A stretch of DNA of 48,400 nt from Pigoraptor vietnamica (Eukaryota > Opisthokonta > Filasterea). The notes beneath the pieces are model-generated. The model ran no database searches, was not told the origin of the DNA, and was given only the letters and a program-made list of their open reading frames with translations. Position numbers and translations under genes: made by a program. This document shows, piece by piece, positions 17,956-48,400 of the stretch (positions are counted from its first letter, which is position 1; every line of letters begins with the position of its first letter). The stretch covers positions 1 to 48,400 of the forward strand of contig CALSCQ010002619.1 of assembly GCA_943704525.1 (NCBI GenBank), in the 5' to 3' direction.

Positions 17956-18747
17956 TGTCTGAGGCGACCAACCCCTTCAAGGGGCGAAGCTCAACATGGG
18001 ACGCTAATAAGCAAGCGCAGTCGGTCAGAGGGATTACACAACACACACACAGAGCTGCTTGTCTTGACGCACGGAGAAGGGGTGGGAGAGCGCGCGCGCG
18101 AGAGAGGAAGCCTGAGAGCGTATGAGTGGCTCGAGAGTGGACGATGGGGGTTTGTGTGGGAGACAAAGAGAATAAGAAACTCTGCACGGCAGTTCAAAAG
18201 AGAAATTCGCGCCAGTCAATTGCCGAGATCTCGGCCAAACAATCCTTCCATTTCACCGAGATCTCGGCAAAATTTTCCATTCAATTTCACCGAGGTCTCG
18301 GAAAAAAATTTTGGTGCGATTTCTCGCTTGGTACGTCACTATGCCATTGACAGCTCTCGCTCTCTTTTGCTTTTTCAAAAATAATCGTTTCCCGCCTTTC
18401 GCCATTCCTTGCGCCGAGCACAACGCACAGACACAGACACGCAAGCGCTTTCCCACACGCGGCGCTAAGCGCGTTTTCACAAGCTGTTTTGCCTCTGTGT
18501 GCTGGCGATCTCACGCCACTGTCCGTTCCGAGCCGTCGCTTTGCCGCAATTCGCAAACGGTCGACGACGTCACTCTCTCGTATTCGACGATCGTTTGTCA
18601 CATGCAAGCGGCTCGCAGCAGGGAGACGGTCAGCGGCGTTGTCTTATACGACTTGCGCCTCTCTAAGTAGGCAGAGCCCGATTCGCTGGATGTAACTGGT
18701 GCTCACTTGCGGGCGTTAACAGGGGCACACCGACCCCACTCGACGCC
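17956..18747. other. divergent intergenic region between HROB and KDM4
   Basis: No gene is supported. The middle (18222-18301) holds three palindromes, listed separately, with AAATTTT-type AT tracts between them. An AATTCGCGCC stretch at 18204-18213 resembles an E2F site. Confidence 0.5.
18222..18301. promoter_or_regulatory. three tandem CCGAGATCTCGG-type palindromes
   Basis: CCGAGATCTCGG occurs at 18223-18234 (extended to a 14-bp palindrome by flanking G and C) and at 18256-18267. CCGAGGTCTCGG is at 18290-18301. Spacing is 33 and 34 bp, about three helical turns, and the last two units share TTTCA before and an AAAATTTT-type tract after. The array is about 270-350 bp upstream of the HROB start and 450-525 bp upstream of the KDM4 start. 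Symmetry and phasing suggest binding sites for a dimeric regulator; the factor is unknown. Confidence 0.65.
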
Positions 18748-21700
18748 ATGTCTGTTGAACCGGCGCCGTATACGCTGGATCCCGGCGGCGTCCCCGTGTT
18801 TCGCCCGTCGATGGACGAATTTCACGACTTTATGGGGTACATTCGGCGGATGGAGGCGTCTGGCGCTCACGAGATTGGCCTCGCCAAGGTCATCCCGCCC
18901 GAGGGGTGGTATCCGAATCGCGATTACTCGTCGGCAGGGGACATTAAGATCACGAGCCCCATACAGCAGCTCGTGACGGGGCGGCAGGGCGTGTACACGC
19001 AGGTCAACATGGTCAAGCGCGCGATGACGGTGCGCGATTTTGAGAAGCTCGCGAATTCGGAGCGGCACAAGACGCCCAAGCACAAGGACGACGAGGAATT
19101 GGAGCGGATATTCTGGAAGAACGTGTGCTTCATCGAGCCCATCTACGGCGCGGATCTGCCTGGGTCGCTCTTTGACCCCTCTGTGACGGACTGGAACGTG
19201 AGCAAGCTCGACACGATCCTCAACGTGCTGTCGGAAGACACCACCGGCGTGCGCATTCTGGGCGTCAACACGGCATACCTCTACTTTGGGATGTGGAAGG
19301 TGCGTGTGCGCGTGCGTGCGTGCGCCGCGCGCGCGTGTGTGTGTGTGTCTGTCTGCCTGTCTATGTGCGTGTGCGTGTGCTCGCGTGTCGTTGTACGCTC
19401 CAGCGCTGACTCGCGCTCTGCGTCCCACTACAGGCGACGTTCGCGTGGCACGTGGAGGACATGGACCTCTACAGCATCAACTACATTCACTACGGCGAGC
19501 CGAAGACGTGGTACGCGATCCCGCCCTCGCACGGGGCGCGCGTGGAGCGGCTGGCGCAGGGGTTCTTTCCCGACGACTTTCGCGCGTGCCCTCAGTTTCT
19601 CCGCCACAAAATGAGCCTCATATCGCCGAGCGTCCTCCGTCAGTACTCGATCCCCTACAGCCACATCACCCACCGCGCGGGCGAATTCATGGTGACCTTC
19701 CCCTACGCGTACCACGCGGGCTTCAACCACGGCTTCAACTGCGCAGAGTCGACAAACTTTGCGACGGACCGATGGATCGACTACGGCGTGCGCGCTCGCC
19801 TCTGCCACTGCTCGAAGGACAGCGTCAAGATCGACATGCGCGTGTTCCTGCGTCGCTTCAGGCCGGGCCAGCGCCTCCCCGGCGAAGTGTCCGACGAGTC
19901 GGAATCGGACACGAGCGACGGCGAAGACAGTTCCGATGTCTCCGAATCGAAGCCGACCGTCAGTCGCGGGCCGAAGAAGGCGAAGCGAAAGGCGCGCCCG
20001 CACGAAATGGCGCCGCGGCAGAAGCGCCCGCGCACGGAGGAGCAGAAGACCGCGGAGCGCGAGCGTCGCCTGCACGCGAAAGCGCTCGCCGCGGAGCGAC
20101 AGGCGGCGGCGGAATTTGCGCGGGAAGTGGAGGCGAACATTGCCTTGTCGCGCGACACGCTGCGTGGGACGCCGCTGTGCTGCGTGTGCGGACAGACGGG
20201 AGACCTTCAGCTGTGTGGAGACGATCCCGAGGAGGAGGCGCTGTCCCACAACATTGCGGCAGTGCGCGTGGCGGCGTGGCACCGCGGGCGCGCGTGGGAT
20301 TCGAGTGGCGACGTGGTCGTCGAAGACACGATGACCGAGGCGGAGCTCCAGAACGAAATGCGGTGGCGCGAGGCCATTGGCGCGCGCTTGGTGCGGTGCG
20401 GGTCGTGCAACGTGACGGTGCATCGGGGTGCGTGGGAAGCTCGGAAAGCCGTTGTTGTCGTGCGCGTGTGGCATGCGGCGTGTGAGTTGCGTATGGATTG
20501 TTGAAAGTGCGGCCGTTCTCTGAACACATGCGTCTCTGCAGATTGCTATGGCGTGGTGAAGGCCGAGTTCCCCTGGCGTTGCGCGCGGTGTGTCGCCGTG
20601 GGAGAGCGGCCCGTGTCGTGTGCGCTCTGCCCCACGCAGGGCGGCGCCCTTCTCCCCGCCTTCTCGTCGCACGTGGACGTCTCGCCCGAGGACGTGAAGA
20701 ATGGCGCCATTGTCGGTGAGGTGGCCTCGTCGTGGTGCCACGTCGTGTGTGCCGCGGGCATCGCCGAGGTCAAGTTTGCGGCGCCGCTCTTCCTGTCGGC
20801 CGTTACGCACCTCGACGCCGTTGTCAAGGCTCGCAAGAACTTGGTGCGTTGTATGGTCCTGTTGATCGCATGGGACGCCCTTGCGACCTACACTGCTCAC
20901 CGGTGTGTGCCCCGCGCAATCGCAGATATGCGTGTACTGCCGTCGTGACTACGAGGCGTCGTTGAGGGACGTGTCGAAGGAGAGGCCGGCGCGACCTATT
21001 GGACCCCGCGGTGCGTGCATGCAGTGTGCCAAGGGCAAGTGCGCGATTGCGTTCCACGCGTCGTGCGCGCTCAAGCAAGGACATGTGCGCGTTGTGTCGA
21101 CGGACGCGCTTGTGAAGAACGGGCTCCTCGCGGAGGGATTCTGCTCGGCGCACGTCCACAACGACAGGGCGGTGCGTGCAATTGTCGCTTTGGAGTGTCG
21201 CAAATGTTTTGCCATCGTATGGAAGAGAATAAGTTGTCTTCGACTTGGAGCATGTGCCGAGTTGATTCACGTGTTTGTTCATGCCTTAAGCGCTTTGCTG
21301 TTTGGTACGCACTCCCTCACACTCGTCGTGGCGTAGGGCTCCAAAGTCTATCGGGCGCCCGTCACTGTCGGCGATTCCATATGGGCCAAGTGGTCCGGCG
21401 ACGGCCTCTACTACCCCGGCACCATCGCGAGCGCGAGCGGCGTGGGCACAACTGTGGACGTTCTGTTTGAAGACGGCTCCGTGTCGTCTGCGCTCCCCTT
21501 GACCGAGCTCGCGCCTTATGGCGCAGAGAGGGTGCGTGTGTGCGTGCGACATGTGCGCGTGTTTTGTGGTCTTGTGTGCAATTGTGCCGTTGTGTCGCGT
21601 TAACTCTCGTTCCGTGGCTGCCCATTGCAGCGTCGGCAGTTCGCGGCGGCGATAGGGGAGATCGTCCCGCCCGAGCAGCTGCGCGTGGAGGCGCGGCAGG

Positions 21701-24551: not shown

Positions 24552-25234
24552 TCCCGGTTGAGACAATGTGTGTGTGTGTGTGTGTACGTGCGTTCTTGGT
24601 GGAAAGATGTGAGTTGTCTGCCGATTCGTGCGCTCGCGATTGAAAAAGCCTTGCACGTGGGATTGTTACAATCCAAAAAAAATCCAGTAACAACTGTTTA
24701 TCAATTGAGGTGCCCCCAAATTAAAAATGACCACAAAAATTTGACCTAATTTGCCCACTTTTTCACATTAAATGCACGGCTGTCTGCGGGCGTGACGGGC
24801 AGCTGTCAAGAGCAAGCCCTCATCCAGAAGTGTGTGCCCGTTGCGCTGTTGGTATTGCCCACGCAAGCGCTCTTCGCGAACACGCACACACCCATAAGAC
24901 ACACACTCCAACCACACACGCCGACGCGCGCGTATACGCACTCTTATTTCAACGAAAACAGCCGGAGCCGGCACTGAATCCTCCTCCCTAAACCCCCGGT
25001 TCGGCTTGAAGCGCTTTGACCGACACACCGTGTTGGACTGCTGACCGTGAATCCGCCCCGATTGCGTTGGCGGGATTCTCCAACACGTTCTCTGAATCTC
25101 GCGATCTGCGCCGCTAGTGCCGCGCAAATGCGAACGCTGTTTTGAAGCGGGCGCCGGCGGGTGACGTCGTCACGGGTGCCCTGCGGCGCCGCTGCTGATA
25201 ATCGGCTGCGCTTCAGTCTGATGCGAAAGGCATC
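24552..25234. promoter_or_regulatory. divergent promoter between RPE and the glycosyltransferase
   Basis: A (TG)n patch lies at 24567-24585, just upstream of the epimerase start. A 15-bp inverted repeat, GGATTGT-T-ACAATCC at 24660-24674, is followed by an AT-rich stretch to 24775 that stands out in this GC-rich DNA. No gene is supported inside. Confidence 0.45.
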
Positions 25235-28200
25235 ATGGCGACGTTTACTCGCGCTTTCACAGACGGCCCCAACTACCGTCGGCGGCAGCTGATCAAGCGG
25301 GCGCTGCTGCTGCTCGTCGCGGCGAGCGTGGCGTGCGCCCTCCTGGCATTCTCCACGGCAGCGAACTACGTTGGCAAAACCGCCTCCATCAGACTCAAGC
25401 CACCATCGACGCGGGCGAGAGAGCCGATCGAGCCCAATCTGTTCGCTGACGGTGGGAGCGATCCCGACCCGCCGCAGGTTTTCAGGGGTATTGCTCTTGA
25501 CGGCGACGCGTTCTTGGACGTCGACGCCGGCGCACGAAACCCGGACGGGGAAGCCGCCGCGTTTGCGCAGCCGCAACAGGCGCGCGATGCTCCGGATGCC
25601 CGCGTGGGAGCACGACGAGATGGGGACGCGCACGCGCAGGGCATGGCCCCTGACACCGCCCCTGGACAAGAGCGCGCGCAACAGCCGCAGCGGGTCGCCG
25701 ACACTGCCCCACCGCGCAACAACGACGAGCGGCGGAGAGACGCGCCGCAAGCTCCGTTGGACCACCGAGCTGCTGTTCCGCCCGACAGTTCGCAATCGGA
25801 CAGGCCCCCGTGGCAGTCGCTGGGCGAGACAATGGTGGAGGTCCTTGGGCACGTGACCGAGCAGGCGATGAACACGGGGACGGCGCTCGAGGGCATGCGC
25901 GTGTGCTTCCTCACGGCGGGACTCGCGGGTCCCGTGCGCTACGGCGGCGTGGGACAGGCCGTCCTGCGACAGGCGGTCCTCTACGCCGAGCACGGCGCGA
26001 CCGTCGACGTCGCGTACGCCGGCGGACCTGCCGAGGGGACGCTTCCGAACTGGCCCGACCACTTTGCGCGCATGGGGCTCAACTACTACTTCGTCCCCCG
26101 CGGCGATCCGAACGGCGCGTACGGGACGCCGGGTATGCGGCGCGCCTTCGATTCGTATGTTTGGATGCGCAATCGGTCGCGGGAGGGCGTCGACTACGAC
26201 CTGCTCGTGTTGCACGACATTCGAGCGGTTGGGCTGTACATCCAGTACGCGCGGTTGACGGGCGTTGCCTTCACGAACAGGCGCATGGCGATAATGACGC
26301 ACTCACACGGGTCGCTGCGCCTCTCGGACTTTCTGAATGCCCGGTTGCCGCTCGACGGCGACGTCGGGCTTGTCAATTATGCGATGGAGCGACTCACCAC
26401 GGAACTGGCCGACGTGAGCCTTGCGCCGTCCGAGTTCTACTACTCGTGGATGCGCGCAAACGGGTACGACCTCGGCCGCAGGGACGCGTGGACGCGGCGG
26501 TGGACGATGCACCTTCTCACCCCGCACGAGGACGACTACGGCCAGAGGGTGTTTGACAACGATGCGCGGTACGGCACGCGCGTGGTCTCGCGCAAGTTCG
26601 GGTTCTTTGGGCGCATCGACCGGCTGAAGGGCGTCCTCACGCTACTCGCCGCGCTTGATCACCTCGTCGCGCACGCGGGCGTCGACGATTCGCTTCCCGA
26701 AGAAGTACTGTTCGTGGGCGACGCGGCTATCCTCCGTGTTGAGGGGATGGTGCTCAACGCGACCGACTACATCAAGCGACGGCACAGGCTGGGGCAGTGG
26801 CCGTTTCCCGTGCGCTTCGCCACCGAACTAGACTCGGTGCAGGTCGCGCGCAAGTTCGTGTCGGAAAACTACATCTTCGTGAACCCAACGAACGGCGAAA
26901 CGGCGTCAACGGTCACTGTGGAGCTCGTCAGCGCCGGCGTGCCTGTCATAACGACCAACGTGTGCGCGCTTCCCGAGCTATTCGCGGACAAGGAAATGTT
27001 CCGCGAGTGGTCGTTCGCGCGCGGCGAATACCTCGAGCTCGCACATCTCATGCAGCAGGCGATGAAGGTCGGCGTGCCCGTCAACAAGCCGCGCCTCTCC
27101 AACAAGCGCGCGTCGAGGCTCTACGTCGCCGCTGCCGTCGCCGCCGTCAAGTACGCCGAAGCACGTGAGCGCGACGCGGCGGAACTGAAAGCGAGGGAAG
27201 GCAACGAAGGCTCTGCATCGTCGTCGTGCCCGCTGACGATTGGCGTGGCCACACGCGACCGCCCCGACTACTTGCACGAGCTGCTGAAGAGCCTCCTCGC
27301 ACAACGATGGTACCCGCCCGGCACCGAACTGATCATCCTCGACGTGGCCTCGGTCAACGTGACCGACGTGGCAAAAGTCGTCGAGTCCTTCAGCGGCCCG
27401 CTCGGCAACAGGGGCGTCAAGCTGCGGTTCGGGCGGTGGGACCGTCCCGCGCACATTTCCGTCGCGCGAAATGCCATCATGAAGCAGGCGTCCGGCACGT
27501 ACATCCTCTACATTGACGACGACGACGTCGCAACGGTGCGGATGGTCGAGCGCATGTACGGCGCCGCCAAGCGCACGGGCGCAGACGTCGTGACGGGATT
27601 CGCGTACAATTTCGATGGGCCGGACAACAATCGCGTGTACCGGCGCGTGTCACTGGCCGTGGGTGCCGCGCAGGAGAGCACACTGTTCGTGCACCACGCA
27701 GGCAAGTCGAACGTGCTCGTGCGCGCAGAGACGCTGCGCCGCGTCGGCGGGTGCTCGCTGGACGACCTCACGACGCCGACGCCGTTCGTCGACTGGGACA
27801 TGTACGGGAAGCTCCTCGCGAAGGGCGCGCGCGTCGTCGTCGTCCCCGAGGCGACGTTCCTCTATCGCATGGAGAGCCGCAACAGCATCTACTACGGGTC
27901 TGTCGGGCAGGATGACCGCACGTTCTTTGCGCACGCCAAGCGCGCTCGCGGCGTGTGCGATGCGTATGGAATTCCGCACCACGCGTGCGCCGGGATCACT
28001 GCTGCCATGCAGCTACTTGCGCGTCCGGGCGGTCACGGTCTCCCGTCGAATGGGCAGCCCGTGCTCACGTGCCGCGGATCTTCACCGGCGCCACCACGTA
28101 ACACGCTCGCGCCGACATCCACTCTTCCCGCCTCCCCCTCCCCGACACACATTGCGGCCGAACATGCGTCGCAGCAGAACGCTGCAGTGAGTCAGCGCGG

Positions 28201-28831
28201 GGACGCGTCGGGGCCCAACGCCGCAGCGGGTCAGCGCGGCGCCTTCAGGCAGCTCGTCGATTTTGCGAGAAGGCAGCGCGAAAACAGAGAGCCCGCAAGG
28301 CCGTTCGGATTGTCGCTCGATCGCGCCATTGATGTGCCGGCGAAGGGGGTGGATGAAGCTCCTAACGATGACGAGCGCGACGAGAGGGTCGCGGACGACC
28401 CTGCCGTCTACGTCGCTCGCGAATTGCGACCGCAGGGCCGCGGGACAGGCAGACTGCAAGAAGAGACTCGCGCCGGTCGTGACAGCGAACGGCCCGCAGG
28501 GAGGGCGCAAGAGCCGCTGCGAGACGTGCGCGGACACGCCGAGGAACGGGCGCCAGAGAACCGCGCCGTTGTGATTCCGGAACAAAGGGCGCGTGACGAT
28601 ATCGCGCCTGACCCGCCAGAGAAGCGATGGCTGGACAGCCGCAACGCAGAACAGCGGGAAGGGGGGATGGTGGGCGACGGAGAGGCGCAGCAGGACGTGC
28701 GCTTCCGAGCAGACGCGCGGCAGGGCGTGCGCATGCCGTCCGCTTTGCTGCGCGTGAAACGAGACGAGAACTCGCTCTTGGACCCGCTGAGGGGTCGCCC
28801 GCGGAGAGAGCGGCCGCCGCGTCAAGGGTAG
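25235..28831 (+). CDS. type II membrane protein with fused GT4 and GT2 glycosyltransferase domains
   Basis: A single uninterrupted 1198-residue frame starts at ATG 25235. Basic residues (RRRQLIKR) precede one membrane span at about 22-44, giving a type II, probably Golgi, topology. A variable stem follows. From about 222 a GT-B, GT4-like domain has FLTAGLAGPVRYGGVGQAV, MTHSHGSLRLS, FGFFGRIDRLKGV and a C-terminal PTNGETASTVTVELVSAG. From about 665 a GT-A, GT2-like domain has LTIGVATRDRPDYLHELL, ISVARNAIMKQASGTYILYI with a DDDD metal-binding motif, and a DWDMYGKLL region. The last 260 residues are Arg/Ala/Glu-rich and probably disordered. Two sugar-transferring folds in one chain suggest synthesis of a two-sugar repeat or coupled additions. 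Substrates cannot be told. The complete lack of introns sets it apart. Confidence 0.88.
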   Translation: MATFTRAFTDGPNYRRRQLIKRALLLLVAASVACALLAFSTAANYVGKTASIRLKPPSTRAREPIEPNLFADGGSDPDPPQVFRGIALDGDAFLDVDAGARNPDGEAAAFAQPQQARDAPDARVGARRDGDAHAQGMAPDTAPGQERAQQPQRVADTAPPRNNDERRRDAPQAPLDHRAAVPPDSSQSDRPPWQSLGETMVEVLGHVTEQAMNTGTALEGMRVCFLTAGLAGPVRYGGVGQAVLRQAVLYAEHGATVDVAYAGGPAEGTLPNWPDHFARMGLNYYFVPRGDPNGAYGTPGMRRAFDSYVWMRNRSREGVDYDLLVLHDIRAVGLYIQYARLTGVAFTNRRMAIMTHSHGSLRLSDFLNARLPLDGDVGLVNYAMERLTTELADVSLAPSEFYYSWMRANGYDLGRRDAWTRRWTMHLLTPHEDDYGQRVFDNDARYGTRVVSRKFGFFGRIDRLKGVLTLLAALDHLVAHAGVDDSLPEEVLFVGDAAILRVEGMVLNATDYIKRRHRLGQWPFPVRFATELDSVQVARKFVSENYIFVNPTNGETASTVTVELVSAGVPVITTNVCALPELFADKEMFREWSFARGEYLELAHLMQQAMKVGVPVNKPRLSNKRASRLYVAAAVAAVKYAEARERDAAELKAREGNEGSASSSCPLTIGVATRDRPDYLHELLKSLLAQRWYPPGTELIILDVASVNVTDVAKVVESFSGPLGNRGVKLRFGRWDRPAHISVARNAIMKQASGTYILYIDDDDVATVRMVERMYGAAKRTGADVVTGFAYNFDGPDNNRVYRRVSLAVGAAQESTLFVHHAGKSNVLVRAETLRRVGGCSLDDLTTPTPFVDWDMYGKLLAKGARVVVVPEATFLYRMESRNSIYYGSVGQDDRTFFAHAKRARGVCDAYGIPHHACAGITAAMQLLARPGGHGLPSNGQPVLTCRGSSPAPPRNTLAPTSTLPASPSPTHIAAEHASQQNAAVSQRGDASGPNAAAGQRGAFRQLVDFARRQRENREPARPFGLSLDRAIDVPAKGVDEAPNDDERDERVADDPAVYVARELRPQGRGTGRLQEETRAGRDSERPAGRAQEPLRDVRGHAEERAPENRAVVIPEQRARDDIAPDPPEKRWLDSRNAEQREGGMVGDGEAQQDVRFRADARQGVRMPSALLRVKRDENSLLDPLRGRPRRERPPRQG

Positions 28832-31579: not shown

Positions 31580-33527
31580 TCAGCCGTGAGGTCCGTTGAA
31601 CCACATGCGCTGCACGCCATACGCGCCCGTGGGTGCGCCGAGGGGACCGACGCCCGGCGGAGGGTGCGCCGGTGCACGCACGCCGGCACCACCGGGTCGC
31701 TTCTTCGGGTCCATGGCAGGGTGGAGTATGCGACGACGCGCGTTCACAAACCTGCACACATGAGGGACGTTCAGTACGACACAATCGTTGGCAAAAGTGA
31801 AAAAATGTGACAAACGAAATGCCATCGCATTTCATCTTAGAGGTAAGAGTGGAGGCACGCAGCGCTCGGCAGAAGGAACTGATATGCGTCACTGACCAGT
31901 TGTTGAGTTGGTTCATGGAGATGCCCGTCTGCGTTGCAAGGGCGCGCTTCTCGTCCTCCGAGGGGTAGGGCGCCTGCACATTATTTTGACGTTGAGTTAT
32001 GCCTCGTCATCACACACACGTGGCACACAGACGACACACACACAACACATACTCGTAACCCACCGAAGTGTGCGCAAACAGCCACTCCTTCAGCACTTGA
32101 ATCGTCTGCTTCGGAAGTGCCCTCCTTGTCCCATTCGCGCGGTCCCGCACTCCGACGCCGCCCTCTTGTCGCCCCGGCACGGCAGTCCCCTCACTCGGCT
32201 CATCATCGTCGTCAGTGCGCGACGGCGCTGGAGATCGCGACTTCCGCTCCTGCGACGGCTGATCAAGCACAGGCCCACCCGCCGTTGCCTTCGATTCGCT
32301 GGCGGGGAGCGAAGTCTTCCGCACAACGGTGCGTCCGCTCTCGTTACCGCCGGTTGTTGTCGCCATCGAATGTCCACCGTCCACGCGAGCGTGGTGCTGT
32401 TGCGAGTTGTCGTTGGGCGCGTTGTGTGCGGGCACGGCGACCATTGCGGTGCCCGGCACAGACGATGTGTGAAGGGAAGGGGGCGCAGGGGCGGCGAGAT
32501 GTCCAGCGACAGGAAAGGGGTTGCCGGTCGCGGGAGGCGGCGCGTATTGCACGGCGCTGTTCTGGGAATGTGCTCCAGCGGGAAGGGTCGCTTTCGAGGG
32601 TGCGAGTGAGGCGATGCCGCCGTGCATAAGCCGATAGCGCGCGTTTTCCATGAAGCGATCGCAGAAGGTGTCGCAGAGCTCATCGAGACGCGAGAGCTCG
32701 GCCGCGTGGATGCGGTACACACGGATGGCGCGAACCACCTGGAAGTTGGGTGTGCGTGTTATGCACTTATTCCCAAACGCACACACAAAGGGCACGCAGA
32801 GGACACCCTCTCGCCACTCTCCCTCCGTTCCCCATGCACTTTGCAACCACGCGGCACGTTGCACACTCACGAGTTCGTCCACTTCGTGGTCCGCCGTGAA
32901 CATCGGCACGCCCCGCAGCGCCTGTTCCGCCGCATATTCTTCGATGAGCTCATCGACGTCTTTCGAAGACGACGACGTCGCAACCGCCGTCTCGTCGCGC
33001 GTCACTTGCGAGAGCTTCGTGTGGACGATGGCGTCGCACTTCTCCCGCAACGCCACGAGCAATGGAAAGAGCGGGTGCGACTCGAGCGCCTCCTTGAGTG
33101 GGTCTTCCCTCGGTGCGTCAATCTGCATGGGCACCCCCACGTGCTCCGACGACGTCGACGTCTGAGAGACGTCCGAGTCTGACGTCAGATCGGAAGAGGG
33201 GTCCATCGGGCGAGGCAACTCGGTAATTGCGCGAAGATCCGCAGAGAAACTCCCATGGCTGAGCGTCGGCAGGCGCTGCTCGGCCGCTTCGTCCGGCGCG
33301 TCTCCGTCGGTGTGTGCAGAAGGCGCAACGAACGTGGCAGGCGCCACAGGCGGGATGTATGGGGGTGGAGGGGGCGCAGCGTCGCCGGCTGTACCAAGGG
33401 GCTCGACAGGCCCTTCGGCAGCAGTGCCCGAGAAAGCGCCATCGTGAGAGAGAGCAAGTGCATGCGCGTCCTCGTGTGAAGGAGCGGGATGGGGCGAAGC
33501 GGAGGGCGCCATTACGGCGTCGTCCAT
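31580..33527 (-). CDS. MEIS/PREP-like TALE homeodomain transcription factor
   Basis: Four exons: 33527-32871, 32738-32064, 31973-31897 and 31751-31580. They give 526 residues. The first MEIS block is at 151-167 (HPLFPLLVALREKCDAI). The second begins exon 2 (VVRAIRVYRIHAAELSRLDE, then LCDTFCDRFMENAR). The homeodomain starts RRALPKQTIQVLKEWLFAHT, has the three-residue TALE extension APYPSEDEKR, and ends QLNNWFVNARRR with the invariant W, F, N and R of helix 3. ILHPAMD follows, as in animal Meis. MEIS proteins bind DNA with TALE partners in the nucleus. Low-complexity Ala/Pro regions separate the domains. Plant KNOX proteins share the MEINOX blocks, but the residues here look closer to MEIS. Introns split the homeodomain before APYP and inside the W codon. 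Confidence 0.92.
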
Positions 33528-33986
33528 CCGCCGGCCACTCGCTCAGAGTTATGTTCGCGCGTGCATGCCGGTTGTATCGAGCGCACCCAGCAGACCAAAA
33601 CGACAGGCGCGCGCGAGGATATGTCGTGTGACGGCACACACACGTCACAGCAAGGTGCGACACAAGTGAGTGGGTGAATATCTCACGAGATGTGTTTTGC
33701 TGTAAGAGTGACCACCGGCCAAAACCGCACGGCCGCAGCCAAAGTCTGTGTGAGCCTCAACTGCACCAACACACACGTAGTTGCGGTGCTCGTACACAAG
33801 GACGTGCACGTACGCACACACACGCACACAGGCACGCACACAATACGAGCCATTTTTATAGGTAGAGAGCTTGTCGCTGCGGGAGCTGGGTCTCGGAGTG
33901 ACAGACGACTGACAGCGAAGGGTGACATGAAGGTCGTCAGAGTGACGTCACTACCACCTGTTACATTGTCCAGACATCATGTGTTC

Positions 33987-34124: not shown

Positions 34125-35909
34125 ATGCCGCGACCGATCGTGTGGACTGTCGCGGGTGAGTCTGTGTTATCGCACATCGACACTCACACGACTCACATGC
34201 ACGGACGGCACTCACACTCACACTGACATGCATGCACACTAATAGTCACACGCATTAGCTCGCTCGTACAGACAACTCACACGCTCTCTCGAACGCTCCC
34301 CACATATGCAGGGTCCGACTCCGGTGGCGGCGCGGGCATACAGGCCGACATGCTCGCAATCCACGCACTGGGGGGCCACCCTTGCACAGTGGTGACCGCA
34401 CTCACGGCACAAAACAGCGTTGGCGTGTCGCGCATCGAGTGTTCGTCCCCGGAAATGGTGCGCGCGACGTTTCATGCGCTGCTGGACGACCTCCCACCTC
34501 TCGCCGTGAAAACGGGAATGCTCGGAAGCGCCGAAGTCGTGCGTGCGGTGGCAGAGGGCCTTGCGCGCCTGGGCGGGAAAGTGCCGGTGATTGTGGACCC
34601 CGTCATGGTGTCGACGACGGGTGCCAGCCTGCTCGCATCACACGTGGGCGGCGAACAGGACGACGACCCCGTCCACATGCTCAAGACACACATACTCCCG
34701 CACGCAGCGCTCGTGACGCCGAACATTCCCGAGGCAGCGCGGCTGTGCGGATGTGCGGAGAGCGACCTCGCCGATCCCGCGGCCATCGAGGCGTGTGCGT
34801 GGAAGATACTCGCCATGGGACCGCACGCCGTGCTCGTGAAAGGGGGCCACGCGAAGCATGCCGATTACGCGAGCGACTGTTATGTCGATGCCGAGGGCGT
34901 CACATGGCTGTCGCTTCCCCGGGTCGACAGCACCAACTCGCACGGCACGGGCTGCACTCTGTCGGCTGCGATCGCGACGTGCGTTGCGTCCGGTATCGCG
35001 CGCAGCAACCCGCACGTGCCGCCGGGAGTCGCTGCGAACATCTCTCTTCTGGACGCCGTCGTCGTTGCGAAGGCGTACGTGTGGAACGGCCTGTGCCGGA
35101 GCGAGCAGTACGGGAAGGGGCCGGGTCCAGTCGCACACACCACGTGGCCGCGTGAGCCAAAGTCCATCCCGTGGGCATCGCGCACTCCGCCGATGACTGG
35201 GCTCAACAGGTGTGTGCCGGGGCCGTCGGAGTGGTCGGAAGTGCACGTTGCGCCGTTCCCTCCGTGTGGGGACGCCCCGCTCGCGTTCTATCCCATCGTA
35301 CCCACGGCCGCCATGGTGGAAACGATGGCACGCGCCGGTGCGACGACGGTGCAAATTCGCGCGAAGGCGTCGGGTGGAATGACGGAGAAGGACGTCGAGC
35401 GCGAGGTGCGGGCGGCGGTCGAAGTGTCGCGCCGCTATCCCTCTCTGCGCCTGTTCGTCAACGACCACTGGCGCATGGCCATCGCATGCGGCGCATACGG
35501 CGTGCACATCGGACAAGAAGACCTCGAGAGCGCCGACGTCGACGCCATTCGCGCTGCCGGGCTGCGGCTGGGCGTGAGCACGCACTCGTACGTCGAGTTT
35601 GCGCGCACGAAAGCGCTGCGGCCGTCGTATGTATCACTCGGTCCCGTGTTTCCGACGGCGTCGAAAAATGTGCCGTTCGCACCGCAGGGTGCCGAGACGG
35701 TGCGGCACTGGCGCGAGCTGATCCCCTCCGAGACCCCCCTCGTGGCGATTGGCGGCATTACGCTCGCAAACGTGCGCGAGGTGATCGCAGCGGGCGCGTC
35801 GGGTGTGGCGGTGATATCCGCGGTGACGCAGGCGGCGGACTTGAGGGCCGCCGCGCGCGAGTGGACGCGCGTCGTGGGCGAGGCACTGCCACGTGCGAAA
35901 TTGGAATGA
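34125..35909 (+). CDS. bifunctional HMP(-P) kinase / thiamine-phosphate synthase (ThiD-ThiE)
   Basis: Two exons: 34125-34155 and 34312-35909. They give 542 residues. ThiD half: TVAGSDSGGGAGIQADML with the split GSDSGGGAG motif, ALTAQNSVGV, AVKTGMLGS, VIVDPVMVSTTG, VTPNIPEA, VLVKGGH and the anion-hole STNSHGTGCTLSAAIA. ThiE half from about residue 350: TTVQIRAK, LFVNDHWRMA, GVHIGQEDL, VSTHSYVEF, SLGPVFPTASK, LVAIGGIT and GVAVISAV. ThiD makes HMP-pyrophosphate and ThiE couples it to HET-phosphate to give thiamine phosphate. The ThiD-ThiE order is that of plant TH1; fungal THI6 instead has ThiE-ThiM. I infer that the organism makes thiamine from its precursors. No targeting signal is visible. 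The neighbouring gene is TenI-like, tail to tail. Confidence 0.95.
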
Positions 35910-36191: not shown

Positions 36192-36905
36192 TCATGGCGG
36201 TTGCTCTCCCTCGCTCCACGCGCGCGCCACCGCCGACACAGCGCTCAGCGGCTCGTCCGCCTGCCAAAACGCGCTAATGGCGGCAATGCCGTGCGCCCCG
36301 TGTGAGCGCGCGCGCGATGCATCCCCAGGCCCAACACCGCCGAGTGCATACAACAGCGGACAATCAACCCCCATCTCCGCCGCCGTGCGCTGTGCCGCTG
36401 CGACAACGCGCCCAAAGCCGTCCCAGCCGAGAGGGTGCTCCGTGGGACAGGACACGCTCTGCCGCACGGGCGAAATCACGGCATAGTCACAACCGGCGCG
36501 CACTGCCGCACACGCTTGCGTCTCGTCATGGCACGAGGCACCGACCACGAACCCACGCGGCAATGGACGCTCTCGTGAGGACATGAGACGATCGCCCGTG
36601 AGATGGACGCCCACGCCACACGCGCGCGCGACGGCGGCGTCCGCATTCACGACAAGCCGCTCGCGGGCACCTGAAAGTGACGCCGCGCGACGCACGATGG
36701 CGAGGAAGGGTGCGTCTCCCTCTTCCTCCACTACGGCGCTGTTGTGTCTGTGCTCGAGCGCTTTCATGCGCAGCTGAACGAGTGCACCTGCTTCGAGAAA
36801 GAGGGCGACGCGGGAGATTAATGTGGCAGCGTCCGCGTCGCACACGCGACCGTCCGTGCGTAGGGTCACGTCGGGCGTGATGACGAGCGCACGTGGCAGC
36901 AGCAT
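36192..36905 (-). CDS. TenI/ThiE-superfamily protein
   Basis: An uninterrupted 237-residue frame from ATG 36905 starts MLLPRALVITPD, a natural first strand for this TIM barrel. Motifs in order: ALVQLRMKA, LVVNADAAVARACGVGVHL, VGASCHDETQACAA, DYAVISPV, a proline/His segment before LGWDGFGRVV, LLYALGGV and GAHGIAAISAFW. This resembles the TMP-TENI domain of bacterial MutT-TenI fusions more than true ThiE. TenI aromatises the thiazole or acts as a related thiazole-phosphate enzyme. The fusion's Nudix half is absent. The stop is only 282 bp from the ThiD-ThiE stop, facing it. A longer upstream frame with a possible acceptor (TTACAG) near 36947 could indicate a 5' exon or 5' UTR intron. The exact reaction cannot be assigned. 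Confidence 0.82.
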   Translation of the reverse strand: MLLPRALVITPDVTLRTDGRVCDADAATLISRVALFLEAGALVQLRMKALEHRHNSAVVEEEGDAPFLAIVRRAASLSGARERLVVNADAAVARACGVGVHLTGDRLMSSRERPLPRGFVVGASCHDETQACAAVRAGCDYAVISPVRQSVSCPTEHPLGWDGFGRVVAAAQRTAAEMGVDCPLLYALGGVGPGDASRARSHGAHGIAAISAFWQADEPLSAVSAVARAWSEGEQPP

Positions 36906-37299
36906 GTGTGCGAATGCGAGAAAGAGCCCCAAAGGCAGAAACTGTAACAAAAAGATGAACACTTGGGTTGCATGCTTCATGCAGACCAACGGGAGACGTG
37001 GAGCAAATGTGGGTGTGACCGGACACTCCCCACGGTGGGTGACCGCGACGGCCGAATGGGCTATCAGTCGGCAGTGATTTGCGTGGCATGCATCCCCTTT
37101 CCCTCTTACAACGCATGGAACTCTGTGCGCATGAAACGACGCGCACTCACTCACCCCTGTGGAGCCCAACAGGAGAGAGGGGGTCATTGCGAGCACTGCA
37201 CGTGACAATATGGAAGGGGCGCTGAAGTGAGATTCGTCGAATGGCTCAACGATTTTGGCGCACCTGCCCATCTCAAGCGTCGTTCACGCGTTCCGCGCC
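36906..37299. other. divergent spacer between the TenI-like gene and the membrane-protein gene
   Basis: This promoter-type region has no conspicuous repeat. A TTTTGGCGC stretch at 37252-37260 is E2F-like but isolated. Confidence 0.45.
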
Positions 37300-43807: not shown

Positions 43808-44618
43808 TTCTCGCTGTGTACTGCTGCGCGCAGCAGAGTTGCAGCAATATGGAGATTTCAGATGCACCTCTGCTCAACGATCGACACGCGATTTCGAGAA
43901 AAAACGACGAGTAAGACGCGCACGGCCGTAAAATTGCGCGGGGATAGAAGGGAATTAGGGAGTGTGCGATTATAGCGATTAAGTGTTGGTGTTGTGGCGA
44001 ATCATGGAAAATGCGCGCCCAAATTTGAATGGATGGGAAAAAAGGCGGGCGAAATTTTACTCCGAGTTACTCCGAGTAGCGCATTGTTACTGCGCAAATG
44101 ACGACATTTGGATGTATCGTCATTGCACTTGATGTCGTCACACAAGGGGAAGGACACGTCATAATGTAAATAAATAATATTTTGTATGAAAATTGTATGG
44201 GAAAGTAAGACAGTAATAAATGTCAATCAATTTGTTTTTTGCATGGCGAAACGAGACTCACGTGTGCCAGTGTGGCTCTGCTGTTGCGCACGAGTGTGCG
44301 TTAGTGTGGCTCCTTGGCCTCCAAACACACAAAGACCTTCGCAGCACACACCGCCCGCACCTATTGCGTAGCCCCTTTGTATGTGCCTGTGGCACTCAGC
44401 GGACGGCTACAGCAAGCGCTTGCGACACTGCGTACCAACCCACTGTTGTCCTCATACCATTCATTCTCACACCGGACACTCGTACAACGCCCCTTGTTGC
44501 GACACTCGAAACAGCTGGTCGCCGCCAGCCGAGCTAGAAAAGTCTCTTCGTCCGCTGTGCAGAAGAGCTGCCAAAGTGGTCTTCTTGCTGGCGATTTGGA
44601 CTTTAATCGCGCGCGAAG
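43808..44618. promoter_or_regulatory. divergent promoter between CENP-C and the PRELI-like gene
   Basis: TTACTCCGAG is directly repeated at 44057-44066 and 44067-44076, preceded by GGCGGGCGAAATTT (44043-44056) and followed by GTTACTGCGC. The GAGTAA core is shared with the RPS20 promoter. The stretch 44137-44240 is AT-rich. No gene is supported inside. Confidence 0.45.
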
Positions 44619-45485
44619 ATGGTCAAGATTTACAGCGGCTCGCACGTCTACTCGACCAAGTGGGAGGACGTGACGTGCGCGTTCTGGCGCAAGTACTCCG
44701 TGTCGAATCCACAGACGAAGCACGTGACGTGTTCGGACGTGATTGAGCGCCATGTGGACCCCGCGACCCACTGCCTGCACACGCGGCGTCTCCTCGTCAA
44801 GACGAATGCGAAGCCCAAGTGGGGCGAGCTGGTGAGTGTCCGCGTGGAGTGTGTCGGTTGAGAGGACGACCACTTCTTTGTATGCGTCCTACGCGAGGGT
44901 GCGTTCGTAATGTTCTCGACACCCGTGTCGTGGCTGTAACGCTCGAGTTGGTATATTCACATCGTTCTATGGTCACTAAATTTTGTCGTTGCTGCGAGCA
45001 GATTTCGCCGGCCAAGTGGGTGTATGTCGTGGAGGACTCTGTGGTGGACCCCCTCAACAAGGTCATGACGACGCAGACGCGCAATGTCATGTACACGGGC
45101 ATCCTCTCTGTCAACGAGAAGTGCGTCTACACCGTGTCCGAAAAGAGCGCGGACATGTGGGTGTTGCCAGCATACACGCCCGTTTGTGTGCCATCGGCGC
45201 TGTTTAAGTGCCGGCGGCGGTGCTTGTGTTCGTGTTCGCTGTGCAGCTTTCTGTTTGTTGTTGTATTGGCTCTCGGGATTTGTCCTAATACTCTTTGCCT
45301 CGTGCTCTAGGACGGACTGCAAGACGACGGCGACCATCCACGCGGGCGTGTGGGGCTTTCGTTCGCGCCTCGAAAACTTTGCGTTTGAGCGCTTCAAGAA
45401 CAACGTCGGCCAGGCGAGGCAGGCGCTGCAGCACGTGATTGAGCTGATGAAGACGGACCACTCGAAGCCCGACCACCGGCAATAG
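44619..45485 (+). CDS. PRELI/MSF1-domain protein (mitochondrial phospholipid transfer)
   Basis: Three exons: 44619-44831, 45002-45156 and 45311-45485. They give 180 residues, typical of Ups/PRELI proteins. It starts MVKIYSGSHVYSTKWEDVTCAFWRKY, then VIERHVDPATHCLHTRRLL, KWVYVVEDSVVDPLNKVM, TTQTRNVMYTGILSVNEKCVY and RSRLENFAFERFKNNVGQAR, all in the family order. PRELI-domain proteins with Mdm35/TRIAP1 carry phosphatidic acid or phosphatidylserine across the intermembrane space for cardiolipin and phosphatidylethanolamine synthesis. Exon 2 uses the GTGGGT donor at 45157, which is needed to keep the frame. Which of the PRELI or SLMO subfamilies it belongs to cannot be settled by eye. Confidence 0.92.
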
Positions 45486-45853: not shown

Positions 45854-46046
45854 TCAGTAGTCTTCGTCCGACATGGCGTCGACGTACTTCTCGAGGACAG
45901 ACGAAATTTCGCAAATCTGGTTGGCGAAATTGAGTCAGAACACTCCGACGAACCCGTTGCAATACATGCAGAGCATGCATGCACCTTTGCTGACGCACGC
46001 GCACAACCTAACGTTCAAACCAACACATGCACGCACACGTACACGC

Positions 46047-46093
<47 letters not shown>

Positions 46094-48279
46094 GCGTACC
46101 TCCGGGGACCCAAAGCGGACCGACTTGGACTTGCCCATGTTGTCGCTGATCTTGAGCACAAGGCACGGCGTGTCTGACGTCATGCGCGTGTCCTTACCCT
46201 CGCGCCAGTTGGCAAGTGCAGCATAGTCAAACTGCTCAATGGGCCTCTGCAGCGACACCAGCGGGGGGGGGGGGGGGGGGGGGGGGTCAGAACAAAGGGC
46301 CGTCGCGTGCACACAAGAATGGGGATGTATCGCACGTCCACACACAAAGAGATGAAAAGCCGACGCACCTTCGTGCGCGGGTCGAGGAACGCCGTGTAGT
46401 GCTTGTTGATGGCGAGAATGGCCTCCTTGTACTCGACGCCCTTCGCGTCCTGCAGAGCGATTGCGATCACACGTGCGCGTGAGTCCCAGAGCAGAGAAAA
46501 GCGGCGCAAGTTGCCATGCAGAGAGCAATAAGCGACAACAGAGGACGCCATGAGAGAGGGTGAAACGGCAGAGATGTTCGCAAGTGTGACCCATGACTCA
46601 GGACAGAGGGATGCACACAATGGGCAGACAACCTCAACCACGATGACCCACAGAGGGATGTGCGCAGAAGACAGCCGCTCAGATCATGCGACCCACCGTG
46701 TAGTTGACAATGTCGTAGAAGGACGACGCGACCGACGGCCAGTTCATGACGCGCTCCAGGAACTGCCGGCGCGCCTCGTCGCCTGTCTTGGCCTCGACCG
46801 ACTTCATCGAATCCTTGACGAGCTTGTCCCACTGCGCGCCCGTCTTAGAGTCCCACAGGTCCTTCGGGAAGTAGCCCTCGAAGCGAGAGCGCCTACGACA
46901 AGAGACACATGTCGGATCAGCTTAAATCATAGACGGTTATCCACAGAGGCGTGCGCGTCGTAGTTGGTGCGAGTACGTTCGTGGCGCCGACCAACAAGTG
47001 CGAGTGTGTGCCGTGTGTGAGGCCACGCACAAACGGGCGCGCCACCCACTTTCCCTCGGACTGCAGGCGGAAGCAGAGGGGCGCGTGGTCCTTCCAGTGG
47101 CCCTGCTGGCACTCCTTGCTGCAGTACGACATGATCTTGCACCCGCCGCACGTCTTCTGCCCGGGCTTGCCGCACACGCACAGCGCCTTCTCGCTGTCGC
47201 AGTTCGTGTCGACCTGCATGTGCGATGGCGTGGTTGTGAGCGAGAGCGGACATGCGGGGCCGGTAATGGATGTCAAGCAACGAATCCAACAGTGTCAGTG
47301 AGCTGAGAGCGCACGGGTTACACGCACCTTGTGCTGCAACACGGCGAGCAGCACGGCCTCTTCGACGGGGCAGCGGTGCTTTCCCTCTCGGTATGCCTTG
47401 AGAATCTGCGTTGTGGGTTTAGAGAGAATGAGCACGCCGCACGCACCACCCACACACGCCAGAGTTAAGAGGAAAGCATTCAATGCACAACGAAAGGGGT
47501 GTTTTCGCCTCAAGTCGGCGCACAACAATCTCGCGTCACGTGCCTGGTAGTAGAAGATGTCGGCGACGCCACCGCCCATGCGCCACTCGCTCTCCGAAAT
47601 CCACAGGCGCTTGCGAAACTCAATGTAGCAGCATCCGGGGTACTTGGCCTCGTACTTGTTGAGCACGTCCAGCACATACTCATCGTCCTGGATGGGCCAC
47701 TCGAACGCTGCGCAGCCGCAGGGAACAAGAGTGAGCCTTGTAGAAAACACGACTCAAGAAGGGAAGGTGCGCAAACGCGCGCGCATTGCACGTCGTGCAG
47801 AATGAATCAAGAAGTGTATGTTATGTGTGCGTGCGTGAGCGAGTGCAAGGTGTCCTTCGAGCCCCATTGCGGCAATTGCGGCAATTCGTGCATCCCACCA
47901 TTGTGCTCCTGGTCGGTTCCCGTGACCCACACGCCGTACTCAATGTAGTTGCGCAGGTTGATGCGGGAGGCGACCATGAAGACGAGCTCTCGGCCGATGA
48001 TCGTGTTGTGTATGATGCAGTTCTTGGTCACACGACCGCCGGGGAAGTGTACGCGCAGCGAGAAGGGCTTCGTCTCCTGCGAGGCGCAAGAAAAGAGTGG
48101 GCGTTGAAGGTGAGCTTAGCAATAGATAGGAGGGACGTGAGTTAAACAAGGAGTAGGACCCGCGGTGTCTGCGGGCGGAAGGGTGTACACACCTCGTACA
48201 CGGTGCACTCCTCGGGACTCGGAATCTGCGCATCGCAATGCATGCACACCGTGTGAGTCTCTTGACACAACGGCTCCAT
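45854..48279 (-). CDS. myosin-type FERM protein with an internal MYND zinc finger
   Basis: Nine exons: 48279-48193, 48076-47899, 47707-47544, 47405-47328, 47213-47050, 46892-46697, 46449-46369, 46246-46100 and 45916-45854. They give 385 residues. F1 (about 31-85): FSLRVHFPGGRVTKNCIIHN and IGRELVFMVASRINLRNY. The F1/F2 join has DDEYVLDVLNKYE. F2: FRKRLWISESEWRMGGGVAD, AYREGKHRCPVEEAVLLAVL, then DEARRQFLERVMNWPSVASS with FYDIVNYT. F3: AILAINKHYTAFLD, LVLKISDN, ending ICEISSVLEKYVDAM. This order matches the FERM of MyTH4-FERM myosins. Between the F2 helices, residues 181-216 form a MYND finger with CVCGKPGQKTCGGC, YCSKECQQGHWKDH and a final C; its first Cys pair is CxC, not CxxC. The finger fills exon 5. 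Intron 3 must be GC-AG (CAG|GCACGT) to keep the frame. It has no motor or kinase domain. Partners are unknown. Confidence 0.82.
46263..46286. repeat. G24 homopolymer in FERM-MYND intron 7
   Basis: Twenty-four consecutive G on the plus strand, so a C24 tract in the transcript, 15 bp upstream of the acceptor at 46247. It could act as an all-C polypyrimidine tract. A (CA)n run fills intron 8 (46038-46091). Confidence 0.95.
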
Positions 48280-48305
48280 TGAACGTGTTGTTTGGCGTGT
48301 TGTCG

Positions 48306-48308
<3 letters not shown>

Positions 48309-48395
<87 letters not shown>
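48309..48395. repeat. (TG)n microsatellite at the right edge
   Basis: About 43 TG units lie 30 bp upstream of the FERM-MYND start codon and run nearly to the window end. Confidence 0.95.
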
Positions 48396-48399
<4 letters not shown>

Positions 48400-48400
48400 G

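Follow-up and report, generated by a model that had tools for sequence, protein, structure and literature searches.

Two described protein groups provide precedents for a folded domain lodged inside another. In kindlin-3, a PH domain is reported to lie in the F2 lobe of the FERM domain, between helices 2 and 3 (PMC7373317), and in SMYD enzymes the MYND finger is described as splitting the SET domain, the parts of which rejoin in the fold (PMC9221539). For the FERM domains of myosin tails, the groove of the myosin VII MF2 FERM is reported as the binding site for harmonin's C-terminal tail (PMC5493754), and for MYND fingers, the DEAF-1 study names Gln529 and Trp533 among the residues involved in peptide contacts (PMC3555993). 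In addition, a survey of myosins reports that some in filastereans have acquired a zf-MYND, without placing the finger in the passage cited (PMC3942036).

The gene described here lies on the minus strand of the window, i.e., the whole stretch of 48,400 nucleotides that was analysed, which is the complete contig C1090 of a 32.5 Mb assembly of 1395 contigs. As a gene model, the nesting of a MYND finger within a FERM domain is real and goes beyond chance. The product is probably a soluble adaptor of 385 residues, in which a FERM domain of the MyTH4-FERM-myosin type would carry a MYND finger in the F2 loop that links helices 2 and 3.

Rebuilding the gene from the raw sequence gave nine exons from position 48279 to 45854, with 1158 nt encoding 385 amino acids and a stop. 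The frame, its span (45854-48279), and the location of the finger in an exon of its own (47050-47213) were thereby reproduced as set out in the original prediction. Exon 1 (48193..48279; residues 1-29) contains the start codon and weakly resembles the region preceding F1 in myosin VIIa. Exon 2 (47899..48076; residues 30-88) probably encodes the F1 (ubiquitin-like) lobe, an assignment based on a Pfam RA match, and exon 3 (47544..47707; residues 89-143) the end of F1 and the start of F2. Exon 4 (47328..47405; residues 144-169) supplies the first helices of F2 up to LLAVLQHK, exon 5 (47050..47213; residues 170-223) the MYND zinc finger, and exon 6 (46697..46892; residues 224-289) the remainder of F2. 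The putative F3 lobe starts in exon 7 (46369..46449; residues 290-316), as indicated by a phmmer alignment to myosin VIIa/b that reaches residue 334 and stops there, inside the F3 half. It continues in exon 8 (46100..46246; residues 317-365), on the basis of a Pfam IRS match below the cut-off, and exon 9 (45854..45916; residues 366-385 plus the stop) includes the end of this weak match and presumably the last F3 helix. On the same strand, the upstream stretch (48280..48400) is almost all CA repeat to the contig end, and the frame is open.

Intron phases are consistent across the nine stop-free exons. Seven of the eight introns are GT-AG, and intron 3 is GC-AG (CAG/GCACGT), giving exon 3 a GC splice donor. 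A GT donor for exon 3 at 47539, four bases 3' of the GC, was considered and rejected, since it breaks the frame and leads to a stop at codon 241. Codon statistics were calculated from a usage table of 711 codons taken from a single further gene in this genome (the myosin L041), and the proposed frame ranked first of six in all nine exons. Scores were positive in eight exons, including exon 5 (0.71; best rival frame, -0.07) and exon 9 (0.26). Exon 1 was the weakest, at -0.50 bits per codon, and its frame led the next best by no more than 0.02. In the introns, each of the 24 frames on the same strand (three for each of the eight introns) scored negative.

Several other genes were noticed in the window. 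A PRELI-like gene on the plus strand (44607-45485; 42.2 bits for the frame 44607-44858, the remainder judged by eye) is convergent with the FERM-MYND gene. Adjoining plus-strand frames at 18739-20504 match JmjN (49.6 bits) and JmjC (128.5 bits) and form a histone-demethylase-like gene, and a plus-strand frame of 1209 codons (25202-28828) has group 1 (38.2 bits) and family 2 (59.7 bits) glycosyltransferase matches in one protein. A plus-strand fusion of phosphomethylpyrimidine kinase and thiamine-phosphate synthase (34227-35906; 230.6 and 162.1 bits) is adjoined on the opposite strand by a separate thiamine-phosphate-synthase-like frame (36195-37283; 85 bits). At 32013-33542 on the minus strand, a Meis/PKNOX N-terminal domain (61.4 bits) is found in this protist, in a frame whose end resembles, by eye, the start of a TALE homeodomain. 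An Rfam search of the window found nothing.

In a Pfam search of the 385-residue protein, FERM_M matched residues 138-283 as one stretch (51.1 bits; cut-off, 23.8), covering positions 13-112 of the 112 in the profile, and the zf-MYND match at residues 182-216 (35.5 bits; cut-off, 22.7) falls within it. The two halves of F2 are also recognized separately, each just above the cut-off, with 25.1 bits for a 56-residue piece from exons 3-4 (FERM_M positions 13-43) and 24.5 bits for exon 6 alone (positions 57-112). In an exon-by-exon search of the genome, the FERM_M pieces of the same gene scored 17.9 bits (exons 3-4) and 22.7 bits (exon 6), under the cut-off. A MYND finger between two F2 halves in a single frame had been proposed from the letters and the translations, and these profile matches bear it out, as FERM_M spans the finger and each half passes the cut-off. 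The placement of the finger at the loop between F2 helices also stands, but the description of that loop as a short turn does not, as the loop covers about 13 Pfam positions (44-56). Deletion of residues 180-216 gave a FERM_M score of 52.8 bits, and deletion of residues 170-224 lowered it to 42.8 bits. From the loss with the longer but not the shorter deletion, the regions flanking the finger seem to make up part of the normal loop.

The outer lobes are less sharply defined by Pfam. In F1, RA matches residues 33-105 just above the cut-off (23.6 bits; cut-off, 21), RA_2 (23.7 bits; cut-off, 27) and FERM_N (14.7 bits; cut-off, 22.7) are both below theirs, and myosin VIIb gives a weak alignment over residues 37-178. 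In F3, IRS (PTB) matches residues 295-377 below the cut-off (17.6 bits; cut-off, 22). Among PDB sequences, the best matches of the whole protein are the myosin VIIb and VIIa tails (E of 4e-13 to 1.7e-12), followed by the MYND fingers of DEAF1, ETO (CBFA2T1), ZMYND10, and SMYD. When residues 170-224 were deleted, five myosin VII chains were retrieved (E of 6e-14 to 0.005) in a search with E up to 10; the sixth chain was a ribosomal protein at chance level (E of 1.4). The Pfam and PDB matches make chance resemblance unlikely on both the FERM and the MYND side. They also support assignment of the FERM sequence to the myosin type, closest among solved structures to MyTH4-FERM myosin tails, with the FERM of the plant kinesin KCBP outside the comparison.

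The finger itself scores higher when exon 5 is searched alone (40.6 bits). Its ligand set is C181 C183 C191 C194 C200 C204 H212 C216, i.e., seven cysteines and one histidine in C4-C2HC order. The first pair of MYND fingers is usually C-x2-C, and C-x-C is unusual for MYND generally. Here, the first pair is C-x-C (C181-V-C183), with no other departure from the usual MYND spacing. The fetched loci of the genome provided 24 distinct fingers (27 pattern matches minus one case of repeat noise and two second readings of the same finger), 22 of which have C-x2-C. The C-x-C pair, singled out in the original prediction as unusual, is thus present and uncommon in this genome but not unique, being shared with a finger on contig C1154. 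It could weaken the first zinc site, and C174 may act as an alternative zinc ligand. In our alignment, Q205 and W209 fall on Gln529 and Trp533 of DEAF-1. When exon 5 alone was modelled with AlphaFold from the single sequence, the prediction was not usable (mean pLDDT, 44.1; pTM, 0.23).

Profile searches of the genome, in which the counts are lower bounds and contig ends may cut genes, found at least 56 zf-MYND matches on 35 contigs (E up to 0.001) and at least 21 FERM_M matches on 14 contigs (E up to 1), with 14 FERM_M matches passing the cut-off. C1090 is the sole contig common to the two lists. Three other FERMs of the genome (on C137b, C934, and C71), in which the F2 loop could be followed within a single frame or as far as an intron, have a short linker of the ordinary kind there. 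When the protein was searched against its own genome (E up to 1), matches outside C1090 were to MYND fingers only, with no FERM among them. Similarly, a tblastn search of 16 loci around other FERM or MyTH4 matches, made with the protein either complete or stripped of its finger, gave nothing significant (best E, 0.23); the weak matches included one of 22 residues at L049, where a genuine FERM is aligned at the corresponding F2 helix (E of 0.28-0.36), and one of 69 residues across F2 at L044 (E of 0.40). An origin as a recent copy of another FERM in the genome was rejected, as neither the genome search nor tblastn of the 16 loci found a FERM close in sequence, and for the same reason a recent break-away from the organism's own myosins is unsupported. 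No viral contig matched any of six peptide patterns derived from the protein.

The best-scoring other finger of the genome is that on C1154 (L017 and L056), with 44% over 41 residues (E of 5.2e-7). At L056 (C1154:24500-27000), a frame weakly resembling PH (17.2 bits; cut-off, 25.1) is followed downstream on the same strand by a C-x-C MYND; the two possibly form one gene, related to the source of the C1090 finger. Elsewhere in the genome, six zf-MYND matches on one strand of C686 (27297-49318), spaced about 4-5 kb apart, are perhaps a tandem family.

The strongest alternative to a free adaptor is that the gene represents the 3' end of a longer MyTH4-FERM myosin and that the finger serves as an extra cargo site on a motor, which we consider unlikely but deserving of real weight. 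Only 121 bases separate the ATG from the contig end, and no stop interrupts the frame over that distance, so that a further upstream part is possible. Furthermore, a weak phmmer match to myosin VIIa (3pvl_A; residues 9-161; E of 0.021) starts before F1; the region around residue 9 is one that we take to correspond to the linker between MyTH4 and F1 of a MyTH4-FERM tail, and the match fits descent from such a tail. The survey of myosins, in the passage cited, presents zf-MYND as one of the domains newly found attached to myosins in filastereans, and the myosin concerned could have the same architecture as the C1090 gene (PMC3942036). However, the 121 bases upstream of the ATG contain no AG acceptor, and no motor, IQ, or MyTH4 was found in them up to the point where the contig stops.

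The MyTH4 matches elsewhere in the genome (eight, on six contigs) also argue against a longer myosin. Three of these contigs (C934, C137, and C899) have FERM_M matches of their own downstream, two (C835 and C126) extend 13.9 and 8.9 kb, respectively, beyond the MyTH4 match without a FERM_M match, and the sixth (C926) ends 519 bases after MyTH4, where its own F1 start and poly-proline can be recognized by eye. C926 was rejected as the missing 5' part on account of that F1 start. Nevertheless, the partner MyTH4 may be absent from the assembly. The C926 locus (L041; C926:17000-19517) is a myosin with MyTH4 in which a motor, IQ-like helices, and an F1 start running into a long poly-proline stretch at the contig end were identified by eye.

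A second alternative, which we regard as quite improbable, is that exon 5 is an alternative cassette and that the main product is a FERM domain free of the finger. An acceptor at 46876 is in phase and would join LQHK to GYFPKDLW in an open frame of 325 residues, but its context (CTTCGAG) looks poor by eye, and the finger-free form would be expected to keep about one residue for FERM_M positions 44-58. Skipping of exon 5 with use of the ordinary exon 6 acceptor leads to an early stop, and plain skipping was rejected on this ground (stop at codon 185). Finally, an annotation artefact, in which exons of two genes or of a decayed gene were joined and the nesting is not expressed, is highly improbable: the GC donor, the C-x-C pair, and the negative codon score of exon 1 in this gene, predicted from genomic sequence, could be read in that way, but the nine exons are free of stops and in matching phase, each has the proposed frame in first place, and both FERM_M halves and the finger each exceed their Pfam cut-offs.

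On the preferred reading, the product of the gene, to the extent that the contig reveals it, is a soluble 385-residue adaptor. In its three-lobed FERM, the F2 loop leading from helix 2 to helix 3, if the helices are numbered correctly, would hold the MYND finger in intact form. By analogy with kindlin and its PH domain, the F2 bundle would close round both ends of the insert and fold as one unit, leaving the finger to project from the FERM. The FERM groove would then engage one partner, membrane or cytoskeletal, by its tail, and the finger, provided that it binds zinc, would take up a proline-rich peptide from another and so tether the two. Such a role as a free two-ligand adaptor is the likeliest reading and is plausible. 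That the adaptor was freed from a myosin tail, as the original prediction had it, is a conjecture: outside C1090, the genome search with the protein (E up to 1) yielded MYND matches only, and the contig end truncates the upstream side.

A broader proposal can be put forward tentatively, although we lean slightly against it in its full form: the loop between F2 helices 2 and 3 may be a recurrent insertion port that has been used at least twice, by the PH domain in kindlins and independently by a MYND finger in a motor-free FERM of the myosin type, the latter defining an undescribed family of FERM-MYND adaptors for a cargo tail and a proline-rich partner. If true, this loop tolerates unrelated folded inserts, and the kindlin layout would be one case of a general route by which a FERM domain acquires a second ligand. 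It would also provide a small protein (385 amino acids) in which two-ligand coupling via an F2 insert could be measured directly.

The MyTH4-FERM myosins (classes VII, X, XV, XXII, and XXV) have a FERM sequence like that of the C1090 protein, but in the alignments the matched myosin VII stretches lack a finger in that F2 loop. The fingers of DEAF-1, ETO, and BS69 share its ligand order and the Gln and Trp of the peptide site, and spacing after the first pair is identical in the DEAF-1 alignment; these fingers have C-x2-C and lie outside a FERM, whereas the C1090 finger has C-x-C. The MYND protein of C1154 shares C-x-C but is encoded on a contig without a FERM_M match. SMYD lysine methyltransferases, as described in the source cited above, resemble the C1090 protein in having a MYND nested in another domain, and no SET domain was matched in the latter by Pfam at E up to 10.

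In the kindlins (kindlin-1, -2, and -3), as in the C1090 protein, the F2 lobe of the FERM is split by another globular domain. The finger follows the presumed second F2 helix (PVEEAVLLAVLQHK) and therefore appears to occupy the same loop as the kindlin PH domain, judging from the protein sequence and the published helix numbering. No PH domain was matched in the C1090 protein by Pfam at E up to 10, and searching PDB sequences with the finger-deleted protein (E up to 10) retrieved no kindlin chain. The original prediction that no described protein has this nesting holds for the exact pair, in that no description of a FERM with a MYND inside was found among the matches listed from the open-licence literature (titles and the starts of abstracts). 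The plan, however, is already present in the kindlins as reported (PMC7373317), and both this PH domain in F2 and the MYND within the SET domain of SMYD enzymes are precedents that the prediction had missed. The insert is what differs, being a PH domain described as involved in membrane-lipid binding in kindlin (PMC7373317) and a zinc finger in the C1090 protein. The C1090 protein is thus best read as using the F2 loop in the manner of kindlin but for another insert, i.e., what would be a known plan realized with an unreported pair of domains.
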